Shown: positions 2,473-15,215 of the stretch, in pieces
Layout: each line of letters begins with the position of its first letter
How positions within the stretch are numbered: the first letter of the stretch is position 1
NCBI RefSeq assembly: GCF_030538695.1
Contig: NZ_JAUNTN010000001.1
Span: 145,745-209,744 of the forward strand
Reading direction: 5' to 3'
DNA from: Paracoccus sp. (in: a-proteobacteria)
Lineage (GTDB): Bacteria > Pseudomonadota > Alphaproteobacteria > Rhodobacterales > Rhodobacteraceae
DNA: 64,000 bases
The notes under the pieces: generated by a model
The model's database searches: none
What the model was told of the DNA's origin: nothing
What the model saw: only the letters and a program-made list of their open reading frames with translations
Made by a program: the position numbers and the translations under genes

Positions 2473-5400
2473 TCAAAAGACGAAGAAGTCATCCCCGTCC
2501 AGATTCAGCCCGCGCGACAGCGTGGCGAAATGCACCCGCGCAGCCGAACCAGTGCCATCTTCGTCGTAATACAGCCGGCCCGAGCGTGAATCATAGATGA
2601 TCCGGTCCGCGCCGCTTTGCGCAACGCCGGTGGTGTTCGACCGAAAGCCCACATCCAGCGCACCGCCACGCAGCCCGGTAAAGATCGACTGAGCCAGCCA
2701 GATCGTATCCTCGTTCGGGGCAAAGTCGCGGATCGAATCGACGCTGCCATACGGCCGCGTATCTATGACAAAAACATCCGCGCCCGCGCCGCCGATCAGC
2801 ACATCGCTGCCCGCGCCGCCATACAGCGTGTCATTGCCGCCTCCGCCGCGCAGCGTATCGTTGCCAGACCCGCCCCAAAGCCGGTCGTCGCCCGCATCGC
2901 CGCTGAGCGCATCATTCCCGTTGCCGCCATGCAGCCAGTCGTTGCCCACGCCGCCGAACAGGGAATCATTGCCGTTACCGCCGTGCAACGTGTCATTCCC
3001 CAGCCCGCCCCAAAGACGGTCATCGCCATCATCGCCATACAGCAGATCGTTATCCGCATCGCCGAACAGCTGATCGTTGCCGATGCCGCCATACAGGGTG
3101 TCGTTCCCGCCACCGCCGCGCAGCGTATCATTGCCGTCATCGCCCCACAGCCGGTCATGGCCGGTGCCGCCGTTCAACACGTCATGGCCGGAACCGCCAT
3201 AGAGCCAGTCGTTGCCCGCGCCGCCGAACAGGGTATCGTTACCCGCATCGCCGCGCAGCGTATCGTGGCCATCCTCGCCCCACAGGCCGTCGTTACCGTC
3301 GCCGCCGCGCAGCAGATCGTTACCCTGATTGCCATGCAGCGTATCGTTGCCAGAACCACCATCCAGCGTATCGTTACCGCCGCCGCCATGCAGTTTATCG
3401 TCACCGGTATCGCCATACAGCCGGTCATTGCCCGCGCCGCCGTTCAGCAGATCGTTCCCGGCACCGCCATACAGCAGATCATCGCCGGATTCGCCATTCA
3501 GCATATCGTTGCCATTGTCGCCGCGCAGCGTGTCATTGCCCGCACCGCCGTAAAGGCGGTCGTTGCCGTCGTCACCATGCAGCAGGTCGTTGCCGGCGTG
3601 GCCATACAGCACATCATCGCCCAAACCGCCGTAAAGGCTGTCATTGCCGTCCCGGCCATAGAGGGTATCGTTGCCCTCATCGCCCCACAGCCGGTCGTGG
3701 CCGCCACCGCCGTCCAGCACATCATGGCCCGACCCGCCATACAGCCAGTCATGGTCGTTGTCGCCAAACAGGGTATCGTTGCCCGCACCGCCGCGCAGCG
3801 TGTCATTGCCATTGCCGCCGCGCAGGACGTTGTTGCCGGAATTGCCGGTCAGCACATTGGCGCGCGCATTGCCGGTGCCGTTGATATGGGCCGTGCCGGT
3901 CAGCGTCAGATCCTCGACAAAGCGAATGCCCTGATGCGTGTCCAGCGAATAGGTGACAGAGCTTTCCACCCGGTCATGCCCGCCCGCATCAACATGCCCG
4001 CCGCGCACCGTCGCCTCGTCCACGATGTCGGTGGTTTTGGTTACGGTATAAACATCGTCACCGGCCCCGCCCATCATGACCAGCGCGCCCTTGGCGTCGA
4101 TCCAGTGGATCATGTCGGTTTCAGGGGCCGTTCCGTCAAAAGAGCCATTGTTGCGCAGGCCATAGCGCGCGATTTCCCGTTCGGTCACGCTGAATTTGAC
4201 GATGTGATGAACCTCCAGCACCTCGCCGGTGGCGCGGTCAGCCACATAGTCCAGAAAGCGGATGACACGGGTGCCATCGGGCAGCGTCCAGAACCCGTCG
4301 CGCTGAATCAGCATCAGCATCGAGTTCTTGTCCACCAGCTCACGGTCATTGACCGACAGCCGTTCCTTGGTGCCGATGGAATCGGTCTTGATGCCCGCGC
4401 GGCTGAACGGCTGGCCCAGCTTGTAAACTTCCGGCCCGGTATAGGTCAGCGACAGCCGGCCGGGGGTCAGATCGGCGGAATCCATCGTGGTATGGAAACC
4501 GGGGCGAAAATTCACCAGCACGTTCTCCACATTGGTCGCATCAAGGTCGATCAGGATATGCGCCACATCCGAGGGCAGCACCTTCGGGTAATGTTCGGAA
4601 AACGATTCGTCCGCCTCGGTGAAGTAAACGCCGTTCTTGAACCCGTCCAGCTTCAGACCGTTGAACACCATGTCAAAGACGTTCAGGCTGAACCGGACAC
4701 CGTTCGACGCAGCGGCGACCCGTTCGGAGTTCGTCGTTCCGATCAGATCAAAGTCCAGCATCGTGTAATGCGACGTATAGCCGATCACAACGCCGGTCGA
4801 GGTTTCCCAGTTCAGGAAACCGTCAAAAACCGAACGAAGATCGTTGTTTTGTTCAGGGGTGGCCTTGATGACCATCAGCCCGATCTGGGTGCCGAAGGCC
4901 TCGTTGTCGCGGAACCCTTCGATCGGGGTGCGGTTAACGGCCACGGTGTCCTGCCCGTAAGCGATACCGGGATATTCCAGATTATCCGCCAGCGGATTTT
5001 CAGGTGCGACGCGATGGAACCATGTATAGCCGTGGGTGGTGTTGATCGCCACGTTTTCAACGGCATGAACCTGACGCCCGGCGAAAAAGAACCCGTCGCC
5101 GGTCTTGCCGATGTCATTGTCGGCGGGGTCGCCCACACGTTTCACCGACCAGTCGCCATAATCGACACCAGAGGATTTGATGGCCATGTTCTGGCCCCAG
5201 ACGCCGGTTTCGTTGCCGTCCTCGGCCACGAAGGCGGCGCCGAACACGTCAAAGGCCACGTTGCCGATGAAATCGGCGTGGCTGCCGTGATGAACAAAGC
5301 CCCAGCCCGGCGATCCGCTGACGGTATTGCCGATGGCGATGGCGGGGTTGTCCTGATCCTCGACCCCGTTCTTGTGGAAATGGAACGGATAACGCGCCTT

Positions 5401-6441
5401 GGCGTTGAAATCGGCCGTCAGCGTCCCCGCCTTCGAGGCGTCCATCGCCGCCTGCGATTTGTCGGTGCGGCCCAGATCGTCAAAGGCGGCATAGCGCACA
5501 TCGACATCGTTGGAATGCATGAACATCACATGACCGCGGTGATGCGTCTGCGTGGCATCTCCGTCGATACTGGAAAAGGTGATGTTGCGGGTCATGTTCG
5601 CGACATAGGCCGACAGATCGTCGCGCGGCGTGTCGTGGTCATAGGTCAGCGGGCGGTCCAGCGTAACGGTGTTACCCTCGATCCCGATGATCCGCACTTC
5701 TTCGTCCTGGCTTTCCTTGTGAACCACGGCGCGGACGCTGTTATCCCAGGTCCAGCCGGTCTTGTGCGTGCCGCTGAGAACCAGGTTGTCGCCGACCTGC
5801 CAGCCCTTGGGCACCTCGGCCAGTTTCAGCACCGTGTCGCCTGCCATGGCATCGGTAGCGACCTTGACGAAGGGGGTCTTTTCCGCCCCGTGAATCTCTG
5901 CCGCCCCGTGCGAGATGACGCCGCGCGACAGCAGCGCCGGGTCCCAGCCGATGTCGATATCGCCGTTATTGGCGATCTTGATTTCCGCCTGAACGCCGGC
6001 CTGCACCGGATTGTCGGCGGTGCCGATTTCCAGCCGCCCCTGCGGGCTGACCACCAGCGTATCCACCACCATCCGGGTGTCCGAGGCCGTGGCAAAGGAC
6101 AGTTCGCCATCGACACGCACGGTGAACAGCGAGGTATCGCTGACCTCGTTGTAATTCACCGAAATACCTTCGGGAATCAGCGCCTTGGCCCCTGCGGTGG
6201 GGATGCGCCCCTGATACCATGTGCCCGGATCGAACCAGTCGCCGTTCTTGATGGCGATATGGGTCGCCTCGGCCCGTGGCACCAGCGCCAGCAGCCGCGC
6301 ATGATCCGCGGCCATCCCCTCGTTCGACATGTCATGCGCATGTTCAGGCGCGTTCTTTACCGCCCGGACAAAAGCATCAGCATCGCCCGTGTTGACAGGG
6401 TAAGTCGGATGATCCGCAGAATGATCACCGTTCGTTGGCAT
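2473..6441 (-). CDS. Giant secreted RTX protein with N-terminal G8 domain
   Basis: This is a 1322-residue protein without a Sec signal. Residues about 60-210 ([18 protein letters not shown], then GISVNY) fit a G8 domain, as in CEMIP/TMEM2-type and bacterial surface proteins. Residues about 250-700 look like a parallel beta-helix with repeated GN and HFHKNG segments. Residues about 866-1225 are about 40 nonapeptides of the GGxGNDxLx type that form Ca2+-binding beta-rolls. The tail ends DDFFVF, a hydrophobic end like type I secretion signals. It is probably exported by a type I system (none in this window) and folds in external calcium. A glycan-binding or glycan-cleaving role is inference from the G8/beta-helix combination. 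The start is supported by AAAGGTG 8 nt upstream. Confidence 0.85.
2767..3846 (-). repeat. RTX nonapeptide repeat block (about 40 x 27 bp)
   Basis: I counted about 40 consecutive 27-bp units encoding G-G-x-G-(N/H/D)-D-x-L-x. The units show a second periodicity of five. Every fifth unit ends RLW or RLY (units 6, 11, 16, 26, 31 and 36; unit 21 has GLW), and it is usually followed by a unit ending TLR, TLY or TLH. This suggests expansion by 135-bp (45-residue) blocks. Confidence 0.85.
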
Positions 6442-6733: not shown

Positions 6734-7132
6734 GCACCCTGCGGCGCGGGCAATGCCGCGCCGCAGAAACCGTCTTGACCCTCAAGGGTGATGCTGCGCC
6801 CGGCCCCGGCGAAATCGCCGCGCTCATCGGTCCAGATCATGCGCAAGGTGCCGCTGTCGCGGGCGGCACAGGTGAAACCGATACAGGGTTCCGGGATACA
6901 GCCGGTTTCAGCGCACCCTGCGGCGCGGGCAATGCCGCACCGCAGAAACCGTCTTGACCCTCAAGGGTGATGCTGCGCCCGGCCCCGGCGAAATCGCCGC
7001 GTTCATCGGTCCAGATCATGCGCAGGGTGCCGCTGTCGCGGGCGGCGAAAGTGAGAACTCGATACAGGGTCGGGATACAGCCGGTTTCAGCGCACCCTGC
7101 GGCGCGGGCAATGCCGCGCCGCAGAAGCCATC
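6734..7132. repeat. 179-bp tandem repeats derived from the soxZ 3' end
   Basis: Units start at 6734, 6913 and 7092, exactly 179 bp apart; the third unit runs into the genuine soxZ end (to about 7236). Each unit holds about 60 bp of soxZ downstream sequence plus about 110-120 bp of soxZ coding sequence (minus strand, the MIWTDERGDF to SITLEG segment). In the two extra copies the soxZ stop TAA has become CAA, so they are not functional gene ends. Each unit also carries an 11-bp stem, CTGCGGCGCGG with CCGCGCCGCAG and a GCAATG loop, at 6739-6766, 6918-6945 (one mismatch) and 7097-7124. Confidence 0.9.
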
Positions 7133-7462
7133 TTAACCCTCAAGGGTGATGCTGCGCTCGGCCTCGGCGAAATCGCCGCGTTCATCGGTCCAGATCATGC
7201 GCAGGGTGCCGCTGTCGCGGGCGGCGAAGGTGAACTCGATATAAGGGTTCTGGGAGACAGTCGGCTCGGGCTGCCATTCCATCAGCACGGCATCATTCAG
7301 CAACGCGCGGAACCCGGTCAGGATATTGCGCGGCATAGGCGTGCCATCGGCCTGTTGGCGAAAGCCGGTTTCCATCGGATGCGCGATCTGGGCGCGGATG
7401 CGCACGATTTCATCCCTGGCGGGGGTTTCGGTGCTGATCCAGATGCGGGGGGGTCTGCTCAT
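7133..7462 (-). CDS. soxZ: SoxZ, sulfur-carrier complex subunit
   Basis: This 109-residue protein is of normal SoxZ length. It starts MSRPPRIWIS and contains IRAQIAHPMETGFR and NPYIEFTFAARDSGTLR, typical of the SoxZ beta-sandwich that binds SoxY and helps present its sulfur-carrying C-terminal arm in the periplasm. SoxZ has no signal of its own and is normally co-exported with SoxY through the Tat system. It is the last gene of the operon, 9 bp after soxY. Its 3' end has been duplicated twice immediately downstream. No soxXA, soxB or soxCD is present in the window. Confidence 0.9.
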   Translation of the reverse strand: MSRPPRIWISTETPARDEIVRIRAQIAHPMETGFRQQADGTPMPRNILTGFRALLNDAVLMEWQPEPTVSQNPYIEFTFAARDSGTLRMIWTDERGDFAEAERSITLEG

Positions 7463-7471
7463 GGTTGGTCC

Positions 7472-7966
7472 TCACATACCGCAGCCGCCGGCGGCGACGG
7501 TGGTTTCGGCGCTGGCTTGCAGGAAACGGCCATCGCTCATCCGGGCGACGGCGCGGACGCGCATGCTTTCGATCAGGCGCAGCCGCAGGGCCACATCCAC
7601 CGGACCCGTCGCCGGGCCAAAGCGGAACACGCTGGCCAGCGGCAGCGGGTTACGGTCGGCCAGCACGATCAGTTCCTCGCAATAGACATCCGCGCCGGGG
7701 TCGGCCGCGATCTGCACGCGGACGGGCACAGCGGCGGGGTTATCGGCCAGCGCGGGCAGGTCCAGCAGCAGGTCGGCTTGCTCTGCCGTGGCATCGCCCA
7801 GGAATTCGGCGATAATCCGGTCGGCCTCGGCATCGTCGGGCTGCGGAAAGGCGCTGGTCAGCATGTGCTCCTGTGCCATCGCCGCCTGCCCGGCCAGCGC
7901 GGCGGCGCCAAAGGCTGCCGCGCCGATCAGGATCTGCCGCCGGTCGGGTTCAGCGCAAAAAGTCAT
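7472..7966 (-). CDS. soxY: SoxY, sulfur-carrier protein with C-terminal cysteine
   Basis: The chosen start (ATG at 7966) gives 164 residues with a Tat-type signal: RRQILIG followed by a hydrophobic alanine-rich stretch ending AMA. The longer frame upstream lies inside the preceding flavoprotein gene. The protein ends GGCGM: the cysteine of the SoxY swinging arm, to which thiosulfate sulfur is conjugated, is present, but the usual terminal GGCGG is changed at the last residue. The start overlaps the flavoprotein gene by 17 bp, implying coupling. It forms the SoxYZ carrier with the next gene. With no SoxXA or SoxB nearby, the partner that loads it is unknown. Confidence 0.88.
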   Translation of the reverse strand: MTFCAEPDRRQILIGAAAFGAAALAGQAAMAQEHMLTSAFPQPDDAEADRIIAEFLGDATAEQADLLLDLPALADNPAAVPVRVQIAADPGADVYCEELIVLADRNPLPLASVFRFGPATGPVDVALRLRLIESMRVRAVARMSDGRFLQASAETTVAAGGCGM

Positions 7967-9278
7967 TGAACATCCCATCAATCCAAACAAAGTCTTCTTC
8001 CAGCAGATCGGGCGTGCGCACGTCAACGTCAATCTGCGTCTGCTGCACATTCCCGTCAGGGCCGATTTCGTAAAAGAACTCGACCGAGATGGCCTCGCGC
8101 GGGTCGCCGTTCACCAGCATATAGCACAGGTTGTCGGGCAGTTCCGCCACGACTTCTTCGCCGCGCACGCGCTGACCGATGTTCCGTGCCACGATCTTGG
8201 CGATATAGTTCGCGACATGCGCGCTTTTGGGGTAATGGCCGAACTGCGGGGAAATCGTGCCCATGCTGTCGCCGACGATATACACGCTGTCATCGCTGTT
8301 GGCGTGGAACAGGCGCGGGTGCATATCGGCCCAGCCGGTCGAGTTATCCTCGGCGTCGCGGCCGATCAGATCGGCATAGAACACCATTTCCGACGCCTGA
8401 TGCGGCGGCATGATGATGGCTTCGTCAAAGTCGAAATCACCCGCCTCGGTCATGATGCGCTTGTTATAGGGGTCCAGTTCGCGGACGCGCGCATTGGGCA
8501 CATGGGTGATGATGTCGGGATACAGTTCCTCGAACGCGGCGCGGTATCCGGCCCCGATGGGGGCGATCATCGGTTTCGGGTCAAGGATCAGGATCTTGGC
8601 CGGGATGTTGTTGACCTTGAAATGCCACGCCATCACGCAGGCCCGCTCATAGGGCGAGGGCGGGCAGCGATGCGGCGGCGGCGGCAGCGTCATCACGATG
8701 GTGCCGCCCTTGAAATCGTGGATCTTGTTCTTCAGCGCCACATGTTCCGCACTGGGGATATAGGCCGAAGGGAAATGCGTCCGGGTGTAATCCGCCGCCG
8801 CCGTGTCATCGCCGAACCACACGTCATAGGCATTGCGGATGCCGCCCGCGAGGATCAGGAAATCGTAATCAACGCTGCCTTTTGACGTGCGCACGATCTT
8901 GCGGTCGCGTTCGATGCCGGTGATCTCGCACTGGATCAGGCTGTAGCCGTATTTATTGGCCGGATGCAGCATGTCCTGGGTCAGGAATGCGGTATCCACC
9001 ACGTCGATCAGCCATTTGTTCGACATCGGGCAGGACCAGAAGAACGGGTTGCGTTCCAGCAGGATCACTTCGGCATCGGGGACCTCTTGCCGCAGATAGC
9101 GTGCGGCGGTCATCCCGCCCCATCCGCCGCCGCAGACGACGATGCGCGGACCGCGCCCCTCGCGCGGTTTCAGTATCGTGTCGGCGGTCAGCGCGGCGGG
9201 GGCGGCCAAAAGGCCAGTGGCGGACAGGCCAAGGGCCAGGGCGGGCGCCCCGGTCAGCAAGCTGCGGCGATGGATCAT
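7950..9278 (-). CDS. Flavocytochrome c sulfide dehydrogenase-type flavoprotein (second copy)
   Basis: The protein has 442 residues with a twin-arginine signal (HRRSLLTGAP plus hydrophobic stretch). A Rossmann motif, VVCGGGWGGMTAARYLR, binds FAD. FFWSCPMSN carries the cysteine equivalent to the covalent FAD attachment site of FccB. HRCPPSPYERA and NLCYML carry cysteines that could form the redox-active disulfide of sulfide dehydrogenases. YIVGDSMG is the second FAD-binding motif. It probably oxidises a reduced sulfur species in the periplasm, possibly one bound to SoxYZ, whose genes follow at once. It is the less FccB-like of the two flavoproteins here. One base separates it from the transporter stop upstream. 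Confidence 0.8.
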   Translation of the reverse strand: MIHRRSLLTGAPALALGLSATGLLAAPAALTADTILKPREGRGPRIVVCGGGWGGMTAARYLRQEVPDAEVILLERNPFFWSCPMSNKWLIDVVDTAFLTQDMLHPANKYGYSLIQCEITGIERDRKIVRTSKGSVDYDFLILAGGIRNAYDVWFGDDTAAADYTRTHFPSAYIPSAEHVALKNKIHDFKGGTIVMTLPPPPHRCPPSPYERACVMAWHFKVNNIPAKILILDPKPMIAPIGAGYRAAFEELYPDIITHVPNARVRELDPYNKRIMTEAGDFDFDEAIIMPPHQASEMVFYADLIGRDAEDNSTGWADMHPRLFHANSDDSVYIVGDSMGTISPQFGHYPKSAHVANYIAKIVARNIGQRVRGEEVVAELPDNLCYMLVNGDPREAISVEFFYEIGPDGNVQQTQIDVDVRTPDLLEEDFVWIDGMFNDFLR

Positions 9279-9279
9279 G

Positions 9280-10287
9280 TCAGATTCCGGTGTTTCGTGT
9301 GTGACGGGTTGCGATCAGAGCAACCGCAATCCCGGCCAGAATACCGGCAAACGCGACCAGACTGGCCAGCGACAGCGTAGAAACTCCGCTTAAACCTTGC
9401 CCGATCGAACACCCCAAGGCAAGCACTCCGCCAAAGCCCATCAGCACGCCGCCCGCGATAGCTTTGACGGTCTGGCGCGGGGTGGTAAAGCTTTCGATGC
9501 GCAGATCGCGCATCAGCACGGTCATGCCAAAGGCCCCCAGAAACGTGCCGCCCACAACCGCCACGCCAAAGACCAGCGCCCGCCCGGTGGACAGCATCAG
9601 CCACAGCAGGCCGTCGCCCACCGGCCCGACAAAGCTGACCGAGGTCAGGATCGGCGGATCGAACGGGTCAGCCGTCGCCGCCGTGATCCACCAGCCCGCC
9701 GCCACGGTTGCGCCCACGATCACGGCGGCGGCGGCCTGTGGCAGATGAGTGCGGCGGATCAGCGGCCATGCCAGTGCCAGCAGCGCCAGCACCGGCCCGC
9801 CGATGGCCAGTGGCGCGGGGATCACCTGCGCCAGCGACAGCGCCTGCGGCTGCGCGACGCCCCACGACTGCATCCACAGCCGCAGCGGGGCCAGCACGCC
9901 GGTCAGGCTGGCCTGCGCGGTCAGGCCAAGGCAGGCCAGCACCACGACCGAACGCAGGTTGCCCCCCGCCGCCAGCACCACCGACCGCGCCCCGCAGGCA
10001 TTGGCCAGCACCATGCCCACGCCAAAGATCGCACCCCCCGCCAGCATCGCCACCCAGGAAAAGCGGGGCCGCATCGGCAGGGATTCCGCCAGATCGGTCA
10101 GCCCCGCCATCTGCAAGCCCTGCGCGCCGATGATCGCCACCGCCAGCGCCAGCGCAAAGGCGCGCAGCGGCGACAGATCGCCGCCGCTCAGCAACCCCTT
10201 CATCCCGCGCAGCAGGCAGAACCGCCCGGCCCGCGCCGCCGCACCAAAGACCACGCCCAGCAGCAGACCGGCCAGAACCGGCGTCAC
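9280..10287 (-). CDS. YeeE/YedE family sulfur-compound transporter
   Basis: This 335-residue, very hydrophobic protein has about nine membrane segments. The YeeE/YedE (Sulf_transp, TsuA-like) family is recognised from the conserved cysteines in GRFCLLRG, ANACGARS and ALGCSIGQG. In TsuA such cysteines line the thiosulfate path. Family members import thiosulfate or related sulfur species, or supply sulfur for TusA- or Sox-type enzymes. The gene overlaps its neighbour upstream by 4 bp and is 1 bp from the downstream flavoprotein, so it is an integral part of this sulfur operon. The actual substrate and the direction of transport are inference. Confidence 0.82.
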   Translation of the reverse strand: MTPVLAGLLLGVVFGAAARAGRFCLLRGMKGLLSGGDLSPLRAFALALAVAIIGAQGLQMAGLTDLAESLPMRPRFSWVAMLAGGAIFGVGMVLANACGARSVVLAAGGNLRSVVVLACLGLTAQASLTGVLAPLRLWMQSWGVAQPQALSLAQVIPAPLAIGGPVLALLALAWPLIRRTHLPQAAAAVIVGATVAAGWWITAATADPFDPPILTSVSFVGPVGDGLLWLMLSTGRALVFGVAVVGGTFLGAFGMTVLMRDLRIESFTTPRQTVKAIAGGVLMGFGGVLALGCSIGQGLSGVSTLSLASLVAFAGILAGIAVALIATRHTRNTGI

Positions 10288-11555
10288 GCCGCGCCCCAGA
10301 TGTCGGTGGTGATGGCCTCATACCAGCCCGCGCCATAGACCGCCTCGGCCTTGCGGAATTCGGCGTCGGCCTCGATGGGGCTGACGCCGCCCGCGCCCTC
10401 GATCTCGACCACGGCATCGTCTTGCGCGGCATAGACCCCGGCGACCGAGATGCCCCAGTCCGGCCCGATCAGGCTGTAGCAGGTGTTGGCAAAGCTGGCG
10501 GTCGGGGGTTCCTGCCCGGCCAGTTCGGCGCTGATCGCCGCCGCCGCCACCTTGGCCTGCGCATTGGCGCAAAAGCCCGATTTCGGCATCGGCGCGGCGA
10601 TGGTCGCATCGCCCACCACATAAATGCCCGGCACCTGCGCCGATTCAAAGCGGCCCGCCCGCACCGGCACCCAGCCCGTCGCATCGGTGACGCCGGCACG
10701 ATCCGCGATCCAGCCGGCCTTTTGCGGCGGGACCACGTTCAGCACATCGGCCCGATGCACGGTGCCAAAGGCGGTTTCCACCTGCCGCGCCGCCGCATCG
10801 ACACGCAGCACCTGCCCGTCATCCGACAGCGGCACCCATTCGATCATGTCGCCATACAGCGCATCCCAGCCCTGCTGGAACAACCCCTGCTTGGAAAAGC
10901 TGTCCTTGCTGTCCAGCAGCAGGATTTTCGACGCCGGCTTGTTGGTTTTCAGGTAATGCGCCACCATCGAGGCGCGCTCATACGGGCCGGGCGGGCAGCG
11001 GAAAGCGCCGTCGGTGATCGACATGACGAATGTGCCGCCGTCCTCCATCGCCTCTAGCCGGGCTTTCAGCAATTGCGTCTGCGGCCCGGCCTTCCACGCA
11101 TGGGGGGCCAGTTCCGCCGCCGCCTCGTCATAGCCGTCCAGCGCGTTCCAGCGGATGTCGATGCCCGGCGACAGGATCAGCCGGTCGTAATCCAGCACCG
11201 CCCCATCGGCCAGCGTGACGCGCCGGGCGGCGCTGTCCACATCCTGCGCGGTGGTGTGGATCACCTCGACCCCCTGCGCGCGCAGATCGTCGAACCCGTG
11301 GCCGATGCTGTCCCATGTCCGCAGCCCGCCCAGATAGAGGTTGGAAAACGGGCAGGTCACGAACCGCTGCGCCGGTTCCACCAGCGTCACCCGCAGATCC
11401 GGGTTCAGCCGCCGCAGATAGCGCGCCGCCGTGGCCCCGCCAAAGCCGCCGCCGACCACCACCACATGCGCCGAGGCCGCCTGTGCCCGCACCAGCGCGG
11501 GGGCCATCAGGCTGGCCCCGATACCGCCCAGAACCGTTCGCCGTGTGAATGTCAT
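10284..11555 (-). CDS. FccB/SoxF-like flavocytochrome c sulfide dehydrogenase flavoprotein
   Basis: ATG at 11555 overlaps the cytochrome stop (ATGA) and has GGAG upstream. The product has 423 residues. A Tat signal (FTRRTVLGGIGASLM) is followed by the FAD motif VVVVGGGFGGATAARYL, the cysteine in FVTCPFSNLYLGG expected to hold FAD covalently, FRCPPGPYERAS, and the late cysteine in ANTCYSLIGPD that pairs with it in FccB. IYVVGDATIAAPMPKSG is the second FAD-contact motif. With the small cytochrome encoded just upstream it would form a periplasmic FccAB/SoxEF-type sulfide (or polysulfide) dehydrogenase. Cysteine assignments are by comparison with FccB, not computed. Confidence 0.88.
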   Translation of the reverse strand: MTFTRRTVLGGIGASLMAPALVRAQAASAHVVVVGGGFGGATAARYLRRLNPDLRVTLVEPAQRFVTCPFSNLYLGGLRTWDSIGHGFDDLRAQGVEVIHTTAQDVDSAARRVTLADGAVLDYDRLILSPGIDIRWNALDGYDEAAAELAPHAWKAGPQTQLLKARLEAMEDGGTFVMSITDGAFRCPPGPYERASMVAHYLKTNKPASKILLLDSKDSFSKQGLFQQGWDALYGDMIEWVPLSDDGQVLRVDAAARQVETAFGTVHRADVLNVVPPQKAGWIADRAGVTDATGWVPVRAGRFESAQVPGIYVVGDATIAAPMPKSGFCANAQAKVAAAAISAELAGQEPPTASFANTCYSLIGPDWGISVAGVYAAQDDAVVEIEGAGGVSPIEADAEFRKAEAVYGAGWYEAITTDIWGAA

Positions 11556-11860
11556 TGCCCGATCTCCGAAAACCATTGCGCCAGCGCGGCGATCTGCGCC
11601 TCGTCATAGCCGCGCATATGCCGCCCCATCACCGTCGAAGGCTCTGATCCGTCGCGAAAGGCCAGCATCCGCGCCTGCAAATCATCGCGCGGCAGCCCCG
11701 CGATCGAGGGAATCGCCCCCGGCGAATGCCCGTCGGGGCCGTGGCAACTGGCGCAAGGCCCGGCCAGCACCTGCACCGCCGTGCGGTCCGGTTCCTGCGC
11801 CGCCGCCATGCCCGGCAGCAGGACGCACAGCGCCAATATCCCCGTCAGTTTCAGGCGCAT
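11552..11860 (-). CDS. Small mono-haem cytochrome c, probable electron acceptor of the flavoprotein
   Basis: This 102-residue protein has a Sec signal ending AAAQ and one haem motif, CASCH, then GLPRDDL and a methionine in STVMGRHMRGYD that fits the sixth haem ligand. GGGGAAAG precedes the ATG at 11860. It is the first gene of the operon and overlaps the flavoprotein gene by 4 bp, so it is most likely the cytochrome subunit of an FccAB-like pair. FccA from phototrophs and SoxE have two haems, so a single-haem partner is a simplification, as in some smaller FCSD types. Confidence 0.82.
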   Translation of the reverse strand: MRLKLTGILALCVLLPGMAAAQEPDRTAVQVLAGPCASCHGPDGHSPGAIPSIAGLPRDDLQARMLAFRDGSEPSTVMGRHMRGYDEAQIAALAQWFSEIGQ

Positions 11861-12209: not shown

Positions 12210-12725
12210 ATGATCTCGGTCATCGACTGGATCAATGAAACGGTCGGGCGCGTGCTGTCGCTGATCGCGGGCGTGTTTGCCGTTATCATCATCTATGACG
12301 TGTTCATGCGCTATGTGATGGTGCGGCCAACGCCCTGGGGCTTTGACATGACAAAGATGCTGTATGGCTTTTACTTTGTCATGCTGGGCGGCTATGCGCT
12401 GCGCCATCAGGCCCATGTCAAGGTCGATCTGCTGACCGCGACCATGCGCCCCGCGATGCGCCGCTGGACAGAGGTCGCCGGTTACATCATCTTTTTCCTG
12501 CCCTTCAGTCTGGTGTTCATGCTGTATAGCTGGCAGTTCGGCCTGCGTGCGCTGGCGCAGATGGAACGCACCTATGGCGCCGTGCAACTGCCGGTCTATC
12601 CGCTGAAACTGGCGATGGGCGTCGCCGCCACGCTGCTGTTCATTCAGGGCATTTCCGAATTGCTGAAGCTGGTCCTGCACCGCACCGACCATCTGGAACC
12701 GATGGAGCCGCTGGATGTTCACTGA
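12210..12725 (+). CDS. dctQ: TRAP transporter small membrane subunit (DctQ type)
   Basis: The 171-residue protein has four predicted membrane helices and the family pattern of a W-x-x-E/D-xx region near the N-terminus plus GGYALRHQAHVKVDLL, the conserved segment of DctQ proteins. It pairs with the large DctM subunit, whose gene overlaps its end by 11 bp. A strong AGGAGG-type site lies just upstream of ATG 12210. It is first of a Q-M-P operon that diverges from the sulfur-oxidation operon across 349 bp. The substrate cannot be told from this subunit. Confidence 0.88.
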   Translation: MISVIDWINETVGRVLSLIAGVFAVIIIYDVFMRYVMVRPTPWGFDMTKMLYGFYFVMLGGYALRHQAHVKVDLLTATMRPAMRRWTEVAGYIIFFLPFSLVFMLYSWQFGLRALAQMERTYGAVQLPVYPLKLAMGVAATLLFIQGISELLKLVLHRTDHLEPMEPLDVH

Positions 12726-14109
12726 TTTCATCAACAGCGCCATCCCGGTGCTGAACGGCGCGCTTGGCTGGATGGCCGTTCCCGGCATCAGCGGCGAAGG
12801 TATCGCGCTGGTCATGGCCGGTCTGCTGGTGATCGGCCTGTTCATGGGGCACCCGCTGGCCTTCGTGCTGGGCGGCACCGCCGTGCTGGGGGCCTTTATC
12901 GCCGGAAAACCGATGGTGCTGGGCATCACCATCAACCGCATCTTTGGCGATGTTCTGGATAATTACACGCTGATCGCCATTCCGCTGTTCGTGCTGATGG
13001 CGCGGTTCCTGTCGGACAGCGGCGTGACCGACAAGATGTTCGAGGCGCTGCGCCACCTGATGGCCAATGTGCGCGGCGGGCTGGGGCTGGCGGTGGTGTT
13101 CATCTCGATCCTGCTGGCGGCGACCACGGGCATCATCGGGGCCTCGATCACCGTCATGGGGCTGATGGCACTGAAACCGATGCTGCAATACCGCTATGAC
13201 AAGCGGCTGACCACCGGGCTGATCGGTGCCTCGGGCTGTCTGGGCATCCTGATCCCGCCCTCGATCATGCTGATCCTGATGGCATCCTATGCCCCCGGCC
13301 TGTCCGTGGGCGAGCTGTTCGCCGGCGCGCTGATCCCCGGCGTGGCACTGGGGCTGATGTATGGGGTCTATGTCTATATGGTGGCGCTGATCCGCCCCGA
13401 CATGGCCCCGCGCCTGTCGGAAAGTGAACAGATCAGCCGGTCTGCCATGTGGCGGATGCTGATCGTCGAGGCGGTGCCGCCGCTGATCCTGATCCTTGGC
13501 ATTCTGGGGTCGATGCTGATGGGCATCGCCACCGCGACCGAGGCATCGGCCATCGGCGCCGTGCTGGCGCTGCTGATCGTGATCGTTCGCGGGCGTTTCA
13601 CCTGGGCGAATTTCTACAGCGCCTTTCTGGAAACCGGCCGCACCTCGGCGATGATCCTGTTCATCGTTGTGGGCGCGACCGCCTTTACCGGCGTGTTCAA
13701 CATCACCGGCGGGCTAAGCGCGACGCAAAGCCTGATCCGCGGGCTGGCCGACGACCCGAACACGCTGCTGATCGTGATGCTGGTGTCGGTGTTCATCCTG
13801 GGCATGTTCCTTGACTGGACCGGCATCGTGCTGCTGTGCTTTCCGATCTTTCTGCCGATCGTGACGGAAATGGGCGTCAGCCCGCTGTGGTTCGTGGTGC
13901 TGATGGCTGTCGTGCTGCAAACCAGCTTTCTGTCGCCGCCCTTCGGCTATGCGCTGTTCTATATGCGGGCGATTTCGCCGCCCGACATTACCATGGTGGA
14001 CATCATCAAGGGCGTGATCCCCTTTATCATCATGGTGTTGCTGATGTGCGGCCTGATCGTGCTGTTCCCGCAGCTGGTCACATGGCTGCCCGAAACGCTG
14101 TATAAATAA
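12715..14109 (+). CDS. dctM: TRAP transporter large membrane subunit (DctM type)
   Basis: This 464-residue integral membrane protein fits DctM in length (425-470). It is hydrophobic throughout with about 12 segments. GASGCLGILIPPSIMLIL and the repeated counterpart VLQTSFLSPPFGYALFY are the inverted-repeat signature motifs of DctM that line the Na+ and substrate sites. It would catalyse sodium-driven uptake of a substrate delivered by the periplasmic binding protein encoded 17 bp downstream. The overlap with dctQ indicates coupled translation. Confidence 0.92.
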   Translation: MFTDFINSAIPVLNGALGWMAVPGISGEGIALVMAGLLVIGLFMGHPLAFVLGGTAVLGAFIAGKPMVLGITINRIFGDVLDNYTLIAIPLFVLMARFLSDSGVTDKMFEALRHLMANVRGGLGLAVVFISILLAATTGIIGASITVMGLMALKPMLQYRYDKRLTTGLIGASGCLGILIPPSIMLILMASYAPGLSVGELFAGALIPGVALGLMYGVYVYMVALIRPDMAPRLSESEQISRSAMWRMLIVEAVPPLILILGILGSMLMGIATATEASAIGAVLALLIVIVRGRFTWANFYSAFLETGRTSAMILFIVVGATAFTGVFNITGGLSATQSLIRGLADDPNTLLIVMLVSVFILGMFLDWTGIVLLCFPIFLPIVTEMGVSPLWFVVLMAVVLQTSFLSPPFGYALFYMRAISPPDITMVDIIKGVIPFIIMVLLMCGLIVLFPQLVTWLPETLYK

Positions 14110-14126
14110 CCAACGGAGGAGATAAG

Positions 14127-15215
14127 ATGAAAACCGCAATCCTGACCTGCGCCGCGCTGGCCGCACTGACGGCGGCCCCGGCCATGGCCAACAACTGGAC
14201 GATGACCAGCACCTGGCCATCCTCGCTGGAACTGATCGAGATTGACAAACACTTCGTCAAGCTGGCCAACGACCTGATCGACGATTCTGACCTGACCATC
14301 GAGTTCTTTGAGGGCGGCGCACTGGTCCCCGCAGGCGAGGTGTTCGGCGCGGTCGAATCGGGCACCATTCAGGCCGGGGCCGACTGGCCGGGTTACTGGG
14401 CCGGGCGCGACCCCGCCTTTTCGCCTCTGGCCACCACCGCCAGCCTGTTCAATGCTGTGGATTACGTCAACTGGATCAAGGCATGGGGCGGGGATGAAAT
14501 CTATAACGAGGTCTATGGCCGCTTTGGCATGGTCTATCTGCCCTATGGCGTGACCAACAATGAATCCGGTTTCCGCACCGTCAGCAAACCGATCCGCACC
14601 ACCGACGACCTGCAAGGTCTGCGCCTGCGCGTATCTGGTCTGGAACAGGGGCGGCTGCTGGAAAAGCTGGGCGGCAGTCAGGTCTCGATCGCGGGTGGCG
14701 AGATTTACCAGTCGCTGGAACGCGGGGTCATCGACGGGGCCGAATTTTCCACCCCGAACGTCGATCTGTCGGGCGGTTTCCAGCAGGTGACCAAATACTG
14801 GTCCACGCCGGGCTGGCACCAGTCGTCATCGGTGTTCGGTGTCATGATTAACAAAGCCGCATGGGACGCCCTGTCCCCCGAAACCCAGGAAAAGCTGAAA
14901 ATCGCCGCCGATGCCACGCTGCTGTGGTCGCTGGCCAATACCGAAAAGCGCGCGACCGAAGCCTATCAGGCATTCCAGGACGCGGGCACCGAGATTACCC
15001 GGTTGGACGATGCAACGCTGGAAAATATCCAGAACATGGCCAACGAAACCATCGTCGAGGTGGCCTGCGCCAACCCGACCTCGGCCAAGGTCTATGCCTC
15101 GATGCTGACCTATCTGGACGATTATGCGAAATGGCGCGATGCCTCGGCCCCGTTCAATCTGGGCCGCACGCCGCAAGGCCCCGATCTGGCCCGCATTCAG
15201 GAATGCGCGGGCTGA
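14127..15215 (+). CDS. dctP: TRAP transporter periplasmic binding protein (DctP type)
   Basis: This 362-residue protein has a Sec signal ending APAMA (about 22 residues), preceded by CGGAGGAG. The mature part carries the DctP pattern: a WPSSLELIEID N-terminus, GGALVPAGEVFGAVESG, LRLRVSGLEQGRLLEKLGG and GEIYQSLERGVIDGAEF. The segment AGADWPGYWAGRDPAF, rich in aromatics and with charged residues, resembles the TakP-like subgroup that binds 2-oxo acids or other organic anions. The ligand remains a guess. The head-to-head arrangement with the sulfur operon makes a sulfur-containing organic anion possible, but nothing in the sequence proves it. Confidence 0.9.
   Translation: MKTAILTCAALAALTAAPAMANNWTMTSTWPSSLELIEIDKHFVKLANDLIDDSDLTIEFFEGGALVPAGEVFGAVESGTIQAGADWPGYWAGRDPAFSPLATTASLFNAVDYVNWIKAWGGDEIYNEVYGRFGMVYLPYGVTNNESGFRTVSKPIRTTDDLQGLRLRVSGLEQGRLLEKLGGSQVSIAGGEIYQSLERGVIDGAEFSTPNVDLSGGFQQVTKYWSTPGWHQSSSVFGVMINKAAWDALSPETQEKLKIAADATLLWSLANTEKRATEAYQAFQDAGTEITRLDDATLENIQNMANETIVEVACANPTSAKVYASMLTYLDDYAKWRDASAPFNLGRTPQGPDLARIQECAG

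Follow-up and report, generated by a model that had tools for sequence, protein, structure and literature searches.

A six-gene SoxYZ, flavoprotein and YeeE operon in Paracoccus, conserved across genera independently of SoxA and SoxB, as a candidate module for periplasmic sulfur or selenium handling

A stretch of 64,000 nucleotides from Paracoccus sp. (NCBI RefSeq assembly GCF_030538695.1, contig NZ_JAUNTN010000001.1, positions 145,745 to 209,744; hereafter the window) carries at 7133-11860, on the minus strand, a set of six genes encoding a cytochrome c, the flavoprotein FCSD1, a YeeE-type transporter, a second flavoprotein FCSD2, SoxY and SoxZ. All parts are members of known families; the set as a unit independent of SoxXAB looks undescribed. 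We give about an even chance to the reading that these proteins together make a self-contained module for oxidation in the periplasm, for carriage on a specialised SoxYZ and for import. Such a module would have no need of SoxXA or SoxB and would probably act on sulfide, and we regard selenium as a serious alternative to sulfide. The evidence consists of the gene content and order, the twin-arginine starts, a pattern of conserved and missing cysteines, the recurrence of the operon and its independence of SoxA and SoxB, while every reaction of the module, its direction and its substrate are what we infer from the sequences.

The six genes overlap or nearly touch and make up one unit, as the original prediction had proposed. 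The first encodes a mono-haem c-type cytochrome of 102 amino acids (11552..11860, on the minus strand like the other five) with one CxxCH motif, CASCH, and a Pfam Cytochrom_C match (8e-5). It overlaps at stop/start with the gene of FCSD1 (10284..11555), a flavoprotein of the FccB/SoxF type that matches PF21706 (FCSD_central, 2e-48) and PF09242 (FCSD-flav_bind, 8e-28), and FCSD1 overlaps in the same manner with YeeE (9280..10287), a YeeE/YedE-type membrane transporter (PF04143, Sulf_transp, 6e-55) with the three cysteines of its family. One base apart from YeeE lies FCSD2 (7950..9278), a divergent flavoprotein with a PF21706 match of 2e-23, which is joined by a 17-base overlap to SoxY (7472..7966; PF13501, 3e-27); a gap of 9 bases then separates SoxY from SoxZ (7133..7462; PF08770, 4e-23). 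FCSD1, FCSD2 and SoxY all begin with a twin-arginine pair, and from this pair their starts are judged to be like those of substrates of twin-arginine translocation (Tat), in agreement with the proposal that both flavoproteins are of the Tat type. Across the loci described below, the pair lies within the first 35 residues of 74/76 FCSD2, 62/65 FCSD1 and 63/71 SoxY proteins.

A scan with the FCSD2 proteins of both operon copies present in this genome found 76 loci in other genomes, which together with the window and the second copy (L003) amount to 78. The order cytochrome-FCSD1-YeeE-FCSD2-SoxY-SoxZ, for which the original prediction had suggested a search, recurs across genera and is found in 46 of the 78 loci: 42 plain, three with one gene hit in pieces (L048, L089 and L113) and the window itself, read in reverse. 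The genera with the operon include Paracoccus, Pseudogemmobacter, Comamonas, Alcaligenes and Oligella, and because the same order recurs in other genera the gene set is not a chance association. Seven loci have the order FCSD2-SoxY-SoxZ-cytochrome-FCSD1-YeeE (with FCSD2 in pieces in L105), four have FCSD2-SoxYZ-FCSD1 and four FCSD2 alone, and the remaining seven hold a partial set, the contig ending within five of these loci. SoxY stands beside FCSD2 in 71 of the 78 loci, and every complete locus has SoxYZ with its FCSD2, save four in which FCSD2 lies among formate dehydrogenase and selenocysteine synthesis genes (fdh-sel). FCSD2-SoxYZ persists even in loci where the remaining genes stand in another order or had no match in the flank, and FCSD2 is the most constant partner of SoxYZ. 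We regard these three genes as the core of the set, with cytochrome, FCSD1 and YeeE making up a second module. The operon is rare, with 2 carriers among 398 sampled Pseudomonadota genomes (E 1e-100) and 17 among 125 of the same genus (E 1e-80), and in a 149-genome sample of the family only the genome of the window itself gave a match above 36% identity.

The canonical Sox system (SoxXA-SoxYZ-SoxB, with or without SoxCD) likewise employs a SoxYZ with a C-terminal carrier cysteine, and the operon might thus be an accessory copy of SoxYZ-SoxEF type that serves such a system or reactivates its SoxYZ. FCSD1 belongs to the FccB/SoxF family, and SoxF has a role in the reactivation or activation of SoxYZ in Paracoccus (Paracoccus pantotrophus). 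A full Sox operon elsewhere in the genome, named in the original prediction as one circumstance that would reduce the set to such a copy, was checked through SoxA and SoxB in the assembly (3.24 Mb, 62 contigs, 99.97% complete, 2.13% contamination): no SoxA or SoxB exceeds its cut-off, the best matches being 131.8 against 550 bits for SoxB and 48.9 against 110 bits for SoxA, in a search that left out SoxX and SoxCD genome-wide. A weak SoxA-like match below the cut-off falls in a 359-amino-acid frame (G000:C56:34972-35229). We assume that this frame may be a dihaem thiosulfate dehydrogenase (TsdA).

The test was extended to 50 of the 76 other genomes (41 not labelled as metagenome-assembled genomes, MAGs, and 9 MAGs), with the own genome added for SoxA. 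SoxB is over its cut-off in 16/50, with one further gene split in two pieces (G151), and SoxA in 19/51, the own genome not among them. Setting aside four genomes with FCSD2 alone leaves 46 operon genomes, of which 13 have SoxA and SoxB, one SoxA and the split SoxB, two SoxA without SoxB, and 30 neither; these 30 therefore seem to lack the means for the known Sox cycle. Exactly one SoxY is present in 20 of the 30 (18 isolates, 2 MAGs). Comamonas denitrificans is an example of a strain with a single SoxYZ and neither SoxA nor SoxB over the cut-off; P. alkenifer has the operon together with SoxA and SoxB. Within the genus, SoxB occurs in 6/17 operon genomes (5 over the cut-off, 1 split) and in 32/108 others (p = 0.78), so that operon and SoxB are not associated. 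The idea that the operon is accessory to a canonical Sox system is rejected for this genome, in which no SoxA or SoxB exceeds its cut-off, and as a general rule by the SoxA/SoxB-less operon genomes and the lack of an association in the genus; despite the 13 of 46 operon genomes with SoxB, the 20 genomes whose only SoxY is the operon's largely refute this explanation, which we consider very improbable. Conservation of the operon across genera independently of SoxA and SoxB is, on these counts, supported.

The SoxY of the operon is itself not canonical, and this too argues against an accessory copy. The window protein falls below the true-SoxY model TIGR04488 (95.7 against a cut-off of 125 bits), ends in GGCGM in place of GGCGG and has an additional cysteine, Cys96, which is present in 71/71 operon SoxYs and 0/36 others; SoxZ, by contrast, passes the true-SoxZ model TIGR04490 (79.6 bits against a cut-off of 76). 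The C-terminus reads CG(M/L/I) in 70/71 operon SoxYs and CNG in one; among the others GCGG is the most frequent ending (15/36). The comparison proteins came from 40 places with other SoxY matches; 38 yielded a SoxY open reading frame, two of which (L136, L153) were dropped as the operon's own SoxY, and a broken one (L150) was kept out of the tree. The tree, built from 35 of these proteins and 30 selected SoxYs of the operon, sets the operon SoxYs on one side of a branch with support 85/95, or 99/99 without L087 (Bradyrhizobiaceae). The phylogeny thus places them outside the sampled canonical SoxYs; grouping with canonical ones was the other circumstance that, in the original prediction, would have reduced the set to an accessory copy. 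A single-sequence structure prediction of SoxY (predicted local distance difference test, pLDDT, 54.5) was not used.

The first two genes resemble flavocytochrome c sulfide dehydrogenase (FccAB/SoxEF). The best match is the Thioalkalivibrio paradoxus flavocytochrome c (FCC) 5n1t, whose two subunits are matched by the cytochrome (haem subunit 5n1t_B, 1.3e-19, its best solved structure) and FCSD1 (5n1t_A, 5.9e-145); this operon differs in having two flavoproteins per one cytochrome. The expected parts of an FCC are there, namely the FCSD central and flavin-binding domains with a c-type haem subunit alongside, and the cytochrome is probably that haem subunit. Both of its haem cysteines are kept in 61/61 aligned sequences. 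FCSD1 constitutes a group of its own (100/99) among FccB-like proteins and has the cysteine for covalent flavin adenine dinucleotide (FAD) and one active-site cysteine in 65/65 aligned sequences; the second redox cysteine is present in the window protein and in 12/14 alphaproteobacterial sequences (not in L041 and L104). The redox and covalent-FAD positions, here and in FCSD2, are named after those of flavocytochrome c. The disulfide pair of flavocytochrome c is described in PMC12010331.

YeeE matches TsuA structures (6leo, 9e-9) and has three conserved cysteines in 58/58 aligned sequences. With the SoxT/TsuA transporters (YeeE/YedE) it shares PF04143, the three cysteines and a gene position near soxYZ; it differs in falling far under the curated TsuA model NF052577 (81.6 against a cut-off of 400 bits). 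The three cysteines are essential in SoxT1B (PMC11582611), a YeeE gene between soxF and soxH is part of sox gene clusters in Sulfitobacter (PMC11034169), and yeeE and yedE transcripts are raised on thiosulfate in a Cupriavidus soxCD mutant (PMC9959259).

The original prediction held both flavoproteins to be of the FccB type. Its reading of the six genes as one unit stands, as does the FccB type of FCSD1, and the unit proved to be conserved across genera and not to depend on SoxA or SoxB; FCSD2 turned out to be only distantly FccB-like. Its AlphaFold2 model (mean pLDDT 85.9) adopts the predicted FCC fold, with TMq values of 0.81, 0.80 and 0.79 to the solved 3vrd_B, 5n1t and 1fcd. No PF09242 was found in it by Pfam at E 1e-3, and in a tree with FccB-like proteins the FCSD2 sequences make up one group at 100/100. 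Cys205 (in alignment numbering), Cys214 and Cys385 are invariant in the 75 sequences from the 78 loci complete enough to be aligned; Cys205 is the one active-site cysteine kept, and at the covalent-FAD position a cysteine was counted by eye in 14/75 sequences only. Relative to FCC, the fold is thus the same, without PF09242, without the second redox cysteine and mostly without the covalent-FAD cysteine. The top NCBIfam hit of FCSD1 and FCSD2 is NF049943 (Type III sulfide quinone reductase, selenoprotein subtype), at 85-101 bits against a cut-off of 525; in contrast to that subtype, the retained active-site position of both proteins is cysteine and not selenocysteine (Sec).

The closest relatives of the operon FCSD2 form a side group (L099, L101, L103 and L106; support 98/81) inside fdhGHI-fdhE-selA operons, at about 7.9-9.3 kb in their loci. 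They lie beside selA in 4/4 loci (three of these also gave a selB match), have Tat-like starts and show 50-55% identity with the window protein when the whole alignment is counted (52-58% by tblastn); no SoxYZ, YeeE or cytochrome of the operon type was found alongside in this fdhGHI-fdhE-selA-FCSD2 arrangement. Because the side group adjoins selA, SelA was searched for in 51 genomes, comprising the 46 operon genomes, the four fdh-sel FCSD2 genomes and the own genome, and is over its cut-off in 50; the exception is an operon genome, Azohydromonas. Among betaproteobacteria, SelA is found in 31/32 operon genomes against 77/299 in the family of Comamonas testosteroni (G280/L067; Fisher 7e-16), a background that itself contains some operon genomes and probably excludes some operon genera such as Zoogloea; counted as genera, assigned by name, the figures are 16/17 and 44/141 (5e-7). 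In the genus, where SelA is frequent (99/125 over the cut-off, 100/125 at E 1e-30), it occurs in 17/17 operon genomes and 83/108 others at E 1e-30 (82 over the cut-off; p = 0.017). SelA hence co-occurs with the operon beyond background, in tests that ignore phylogeny.

Twenty regions were fetched, 19 of them with a SelA match (L183 is the operon region of G182, and L192 is from a genome with FCSD2 alone). All of fdhG, fdhH, fdhI, fdhE, selA and selB were found in 17 of the 19, with partial sets in L178 and L187, and the own genome has tRNA-Sec and encodes an FdnG whose expected Sec site is an in-frame TGA. These sets, together with the Tat-like FCSD2 homologues that occur in fdhGHI-fdhE-selA operons without SoxYZ and the co-occurrence of SelA, would fit a role in the maintenance of exported Sec-formate dehydrogenase, in which FCSD2, with SoxYZ where present, would deliver or protect sulfur at the periplasmic Mo=S/Sec site or remove inhibitory sulfide. 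Such a role explains YeeE and the cytochrome poorly, and we hold it to be improbable.

The same observations bear on selenium handling, whereby the chemistry proposed for sulfide would act on selenide or other reduced selenium, SoxY would carry the atom and YeeE would import it for SelD/SelA and on to Sec-formate dehydrogenase. The presence of SelA in 50 of the 51 genomes, above the family and genus background, and the position of the FCSD2 side group beside selA speak for it, as do two cases of physical proximity: in a Paracoccus MAG (G693/L038) fdhGHI-fdhE-selA-selB is the immediate neighbour of the operon, in divergent orientation, and in Paracoccus alcaliphilus one copy of the operon resides on a 403-kb plasmid (the single plasmid record at E 1e-60) that also carries the fdh-sel set, about 140 kb apart. 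YedE-type relatives of the transporter are moreover tied to selenium transport (PMC5322559, PMC11582611). Against this, YeeE scores far under the selenium-YedE model TIGR04112 (20.7 against a cut-off of 200 bits), 83 of the 100 SelA genomes of the genus are without the operon, Azohydromonas has the operon without SelA, and operon and fdh-sel set are usually unlinked; apart from these two cases, the 17 operon genomes of the genus have them on separate contigs or at a great distance from each other. A shared anaerobic habitat could yield the same association, the tests having included no habitat control trait. Selenium handling in this broad sense is a tentative possibility, well short of an even chance; rather unlikely in its narrower form is a dedicated selenium-acquisition route, in which flavocytochrome c and FCSD2 would fix perselenide on SoxY and YeeE would import it for formate dehydrogenase-N. 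Selenoprotein forms of the YeeE/YedE transporter and of type III sulfide quinone reductase are listed in PMC13188914, so that relatives of two operon parts can themselves carry selenocysteine. As to a selenoprotein within the operon, in-frame stops occur in FCSD1 of L056 and FCSD2 of L105, neither at a catalytic cysteine; in our reading they are faults of the sequence or the assembly, and these two tblastn matches were inspected singly and not as part of a systematic survey of Sec codons.

For the reading favoured at the outset, a module acting on sulfide, the following sequence of events may be envisaged. The cytochrome and FCSD1 would, as a flavocytochrome c, oxidise a sulfide-level substrate and pass the electrons to the respiratory chain, and the resulting sulfane-level atom (sulfur or selenium) would be placed on the C-terminal cysteine of SoxY. 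FCSD2, with its single active-site cysteine and FAD, might act on this carrier as loader, reductant or oxidant, and YeeE would move the atom across the inner membrane. All parts of the operon are members of sulfur families, and for this reason sulfide is put forward as the main substrate. Several observations weigh against this scheme. The second redox cysteine is replaced by valine or isoleucine in 75/75 aligned FCSD2 sequences, and in FCSD1 by alanine, serine or valine in 50/50 of the sequences other than the alphaproteobacterial ones, with one more truncated; the flavin chain of the solved 5n1t likewise has alanine at this position. Six loci possess the other five genes with no YeeE match, and four consist of FCSD2-SoxYZ alone. 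Finally, plain sulfide oxidation does not explain the link to SelA, except as a shared habitat.

The genome of the window holds a second, diverged copy of all six genes on another contig (C22; L003, about 11.2-15.9 kb), and the only two SoxY matches in the genome are those of the two copies. Their FCSD2 proteins are 76% identical. The window copy groups with L100 of another genome and not with L003 in all three trees (SoxY, FCSD1 and FCSD2), so that the two copies are not a recent duplication; L003 is next to the window/L100 pair in the SoxY tree (96/85) and elsewhere, with weak support, in the FCSD1 and FCSD2 trees. After the second copy comes a gene for an Rrf2-type regulator that has several cysteines (L003:16169-16633), and no such gene was seen adjoining the window copy. 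The 45 largest neighbour clusters and the same-strand adjoining genes were looked through for one that might point to the substrate; none was seen to be widely common to the genera, the frequent neighbours representing a Comamonas-type context. A NifS-like cysteine desulfurase about 109 bp after YeeE-FCSD2-SoxY-SoxZ was seen in L087 only (10253-11371). An FNR-type anaerobic box is not enriched upstream of the operons (5/76 regions with at most two mismatches, against 5.0% of shuffles), and a search of viral_contigs with two peptide patterns found no relative.

In the window, a tandem repeat of three 179-bp units (6734..7264, minus strand; Tandem Repeats Finder, 92% matches between units) spans the 3' end of soxZ and the adjoining downstream sequence, and tblastn gives two more matches there, to SoxZ residues 73-109 and 74-109. 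Further downstream, 2473-6441 (minus strand) encodes a protein of 1322 amino acids with long glycine/aspartate-rich repeats, RTX-like by eye. On the other side a tripartite ATP-independent periplasmic (TRAP) transporter (DctQ, DctM and DctP by Pfam; 12210-15215) begins divergently from the operon.

A literature search, with most subscription journals and preprints outside its range, returned no description of the operon, its SoxY subfamily or the link to selenocysteine. Selenium papers name YedE; the word flavoprotein was counted zero times in PMC5322559 and PMC9312934, and SoxY zero times in PMC9312934 and PMC13188914. Public annotation of the P. alcaliphilus plasmid lists the operon SoxY and SoxZ as thiosulfate oxidation carrier proteins. 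Should flavoproteins alone be able to load SoxYZ, the presence of soxYZ would say little about thiosulfate oxidation, and an unrecognised capacity for sulfur or selenium would exist in heterotrophs, among them Comamonas, Alcaligenes and Oligella. The co-occurrence with selenocysteine synthesis opens a direct test of sulfur versus selenium. A high-affinity selenium uptake system had not been identified according to a 2022 review (PMC9312934); the dedicated selenium route, if true, would mean that a SoxYZ serves selenium, and the operon would be a candidate for this missing system.

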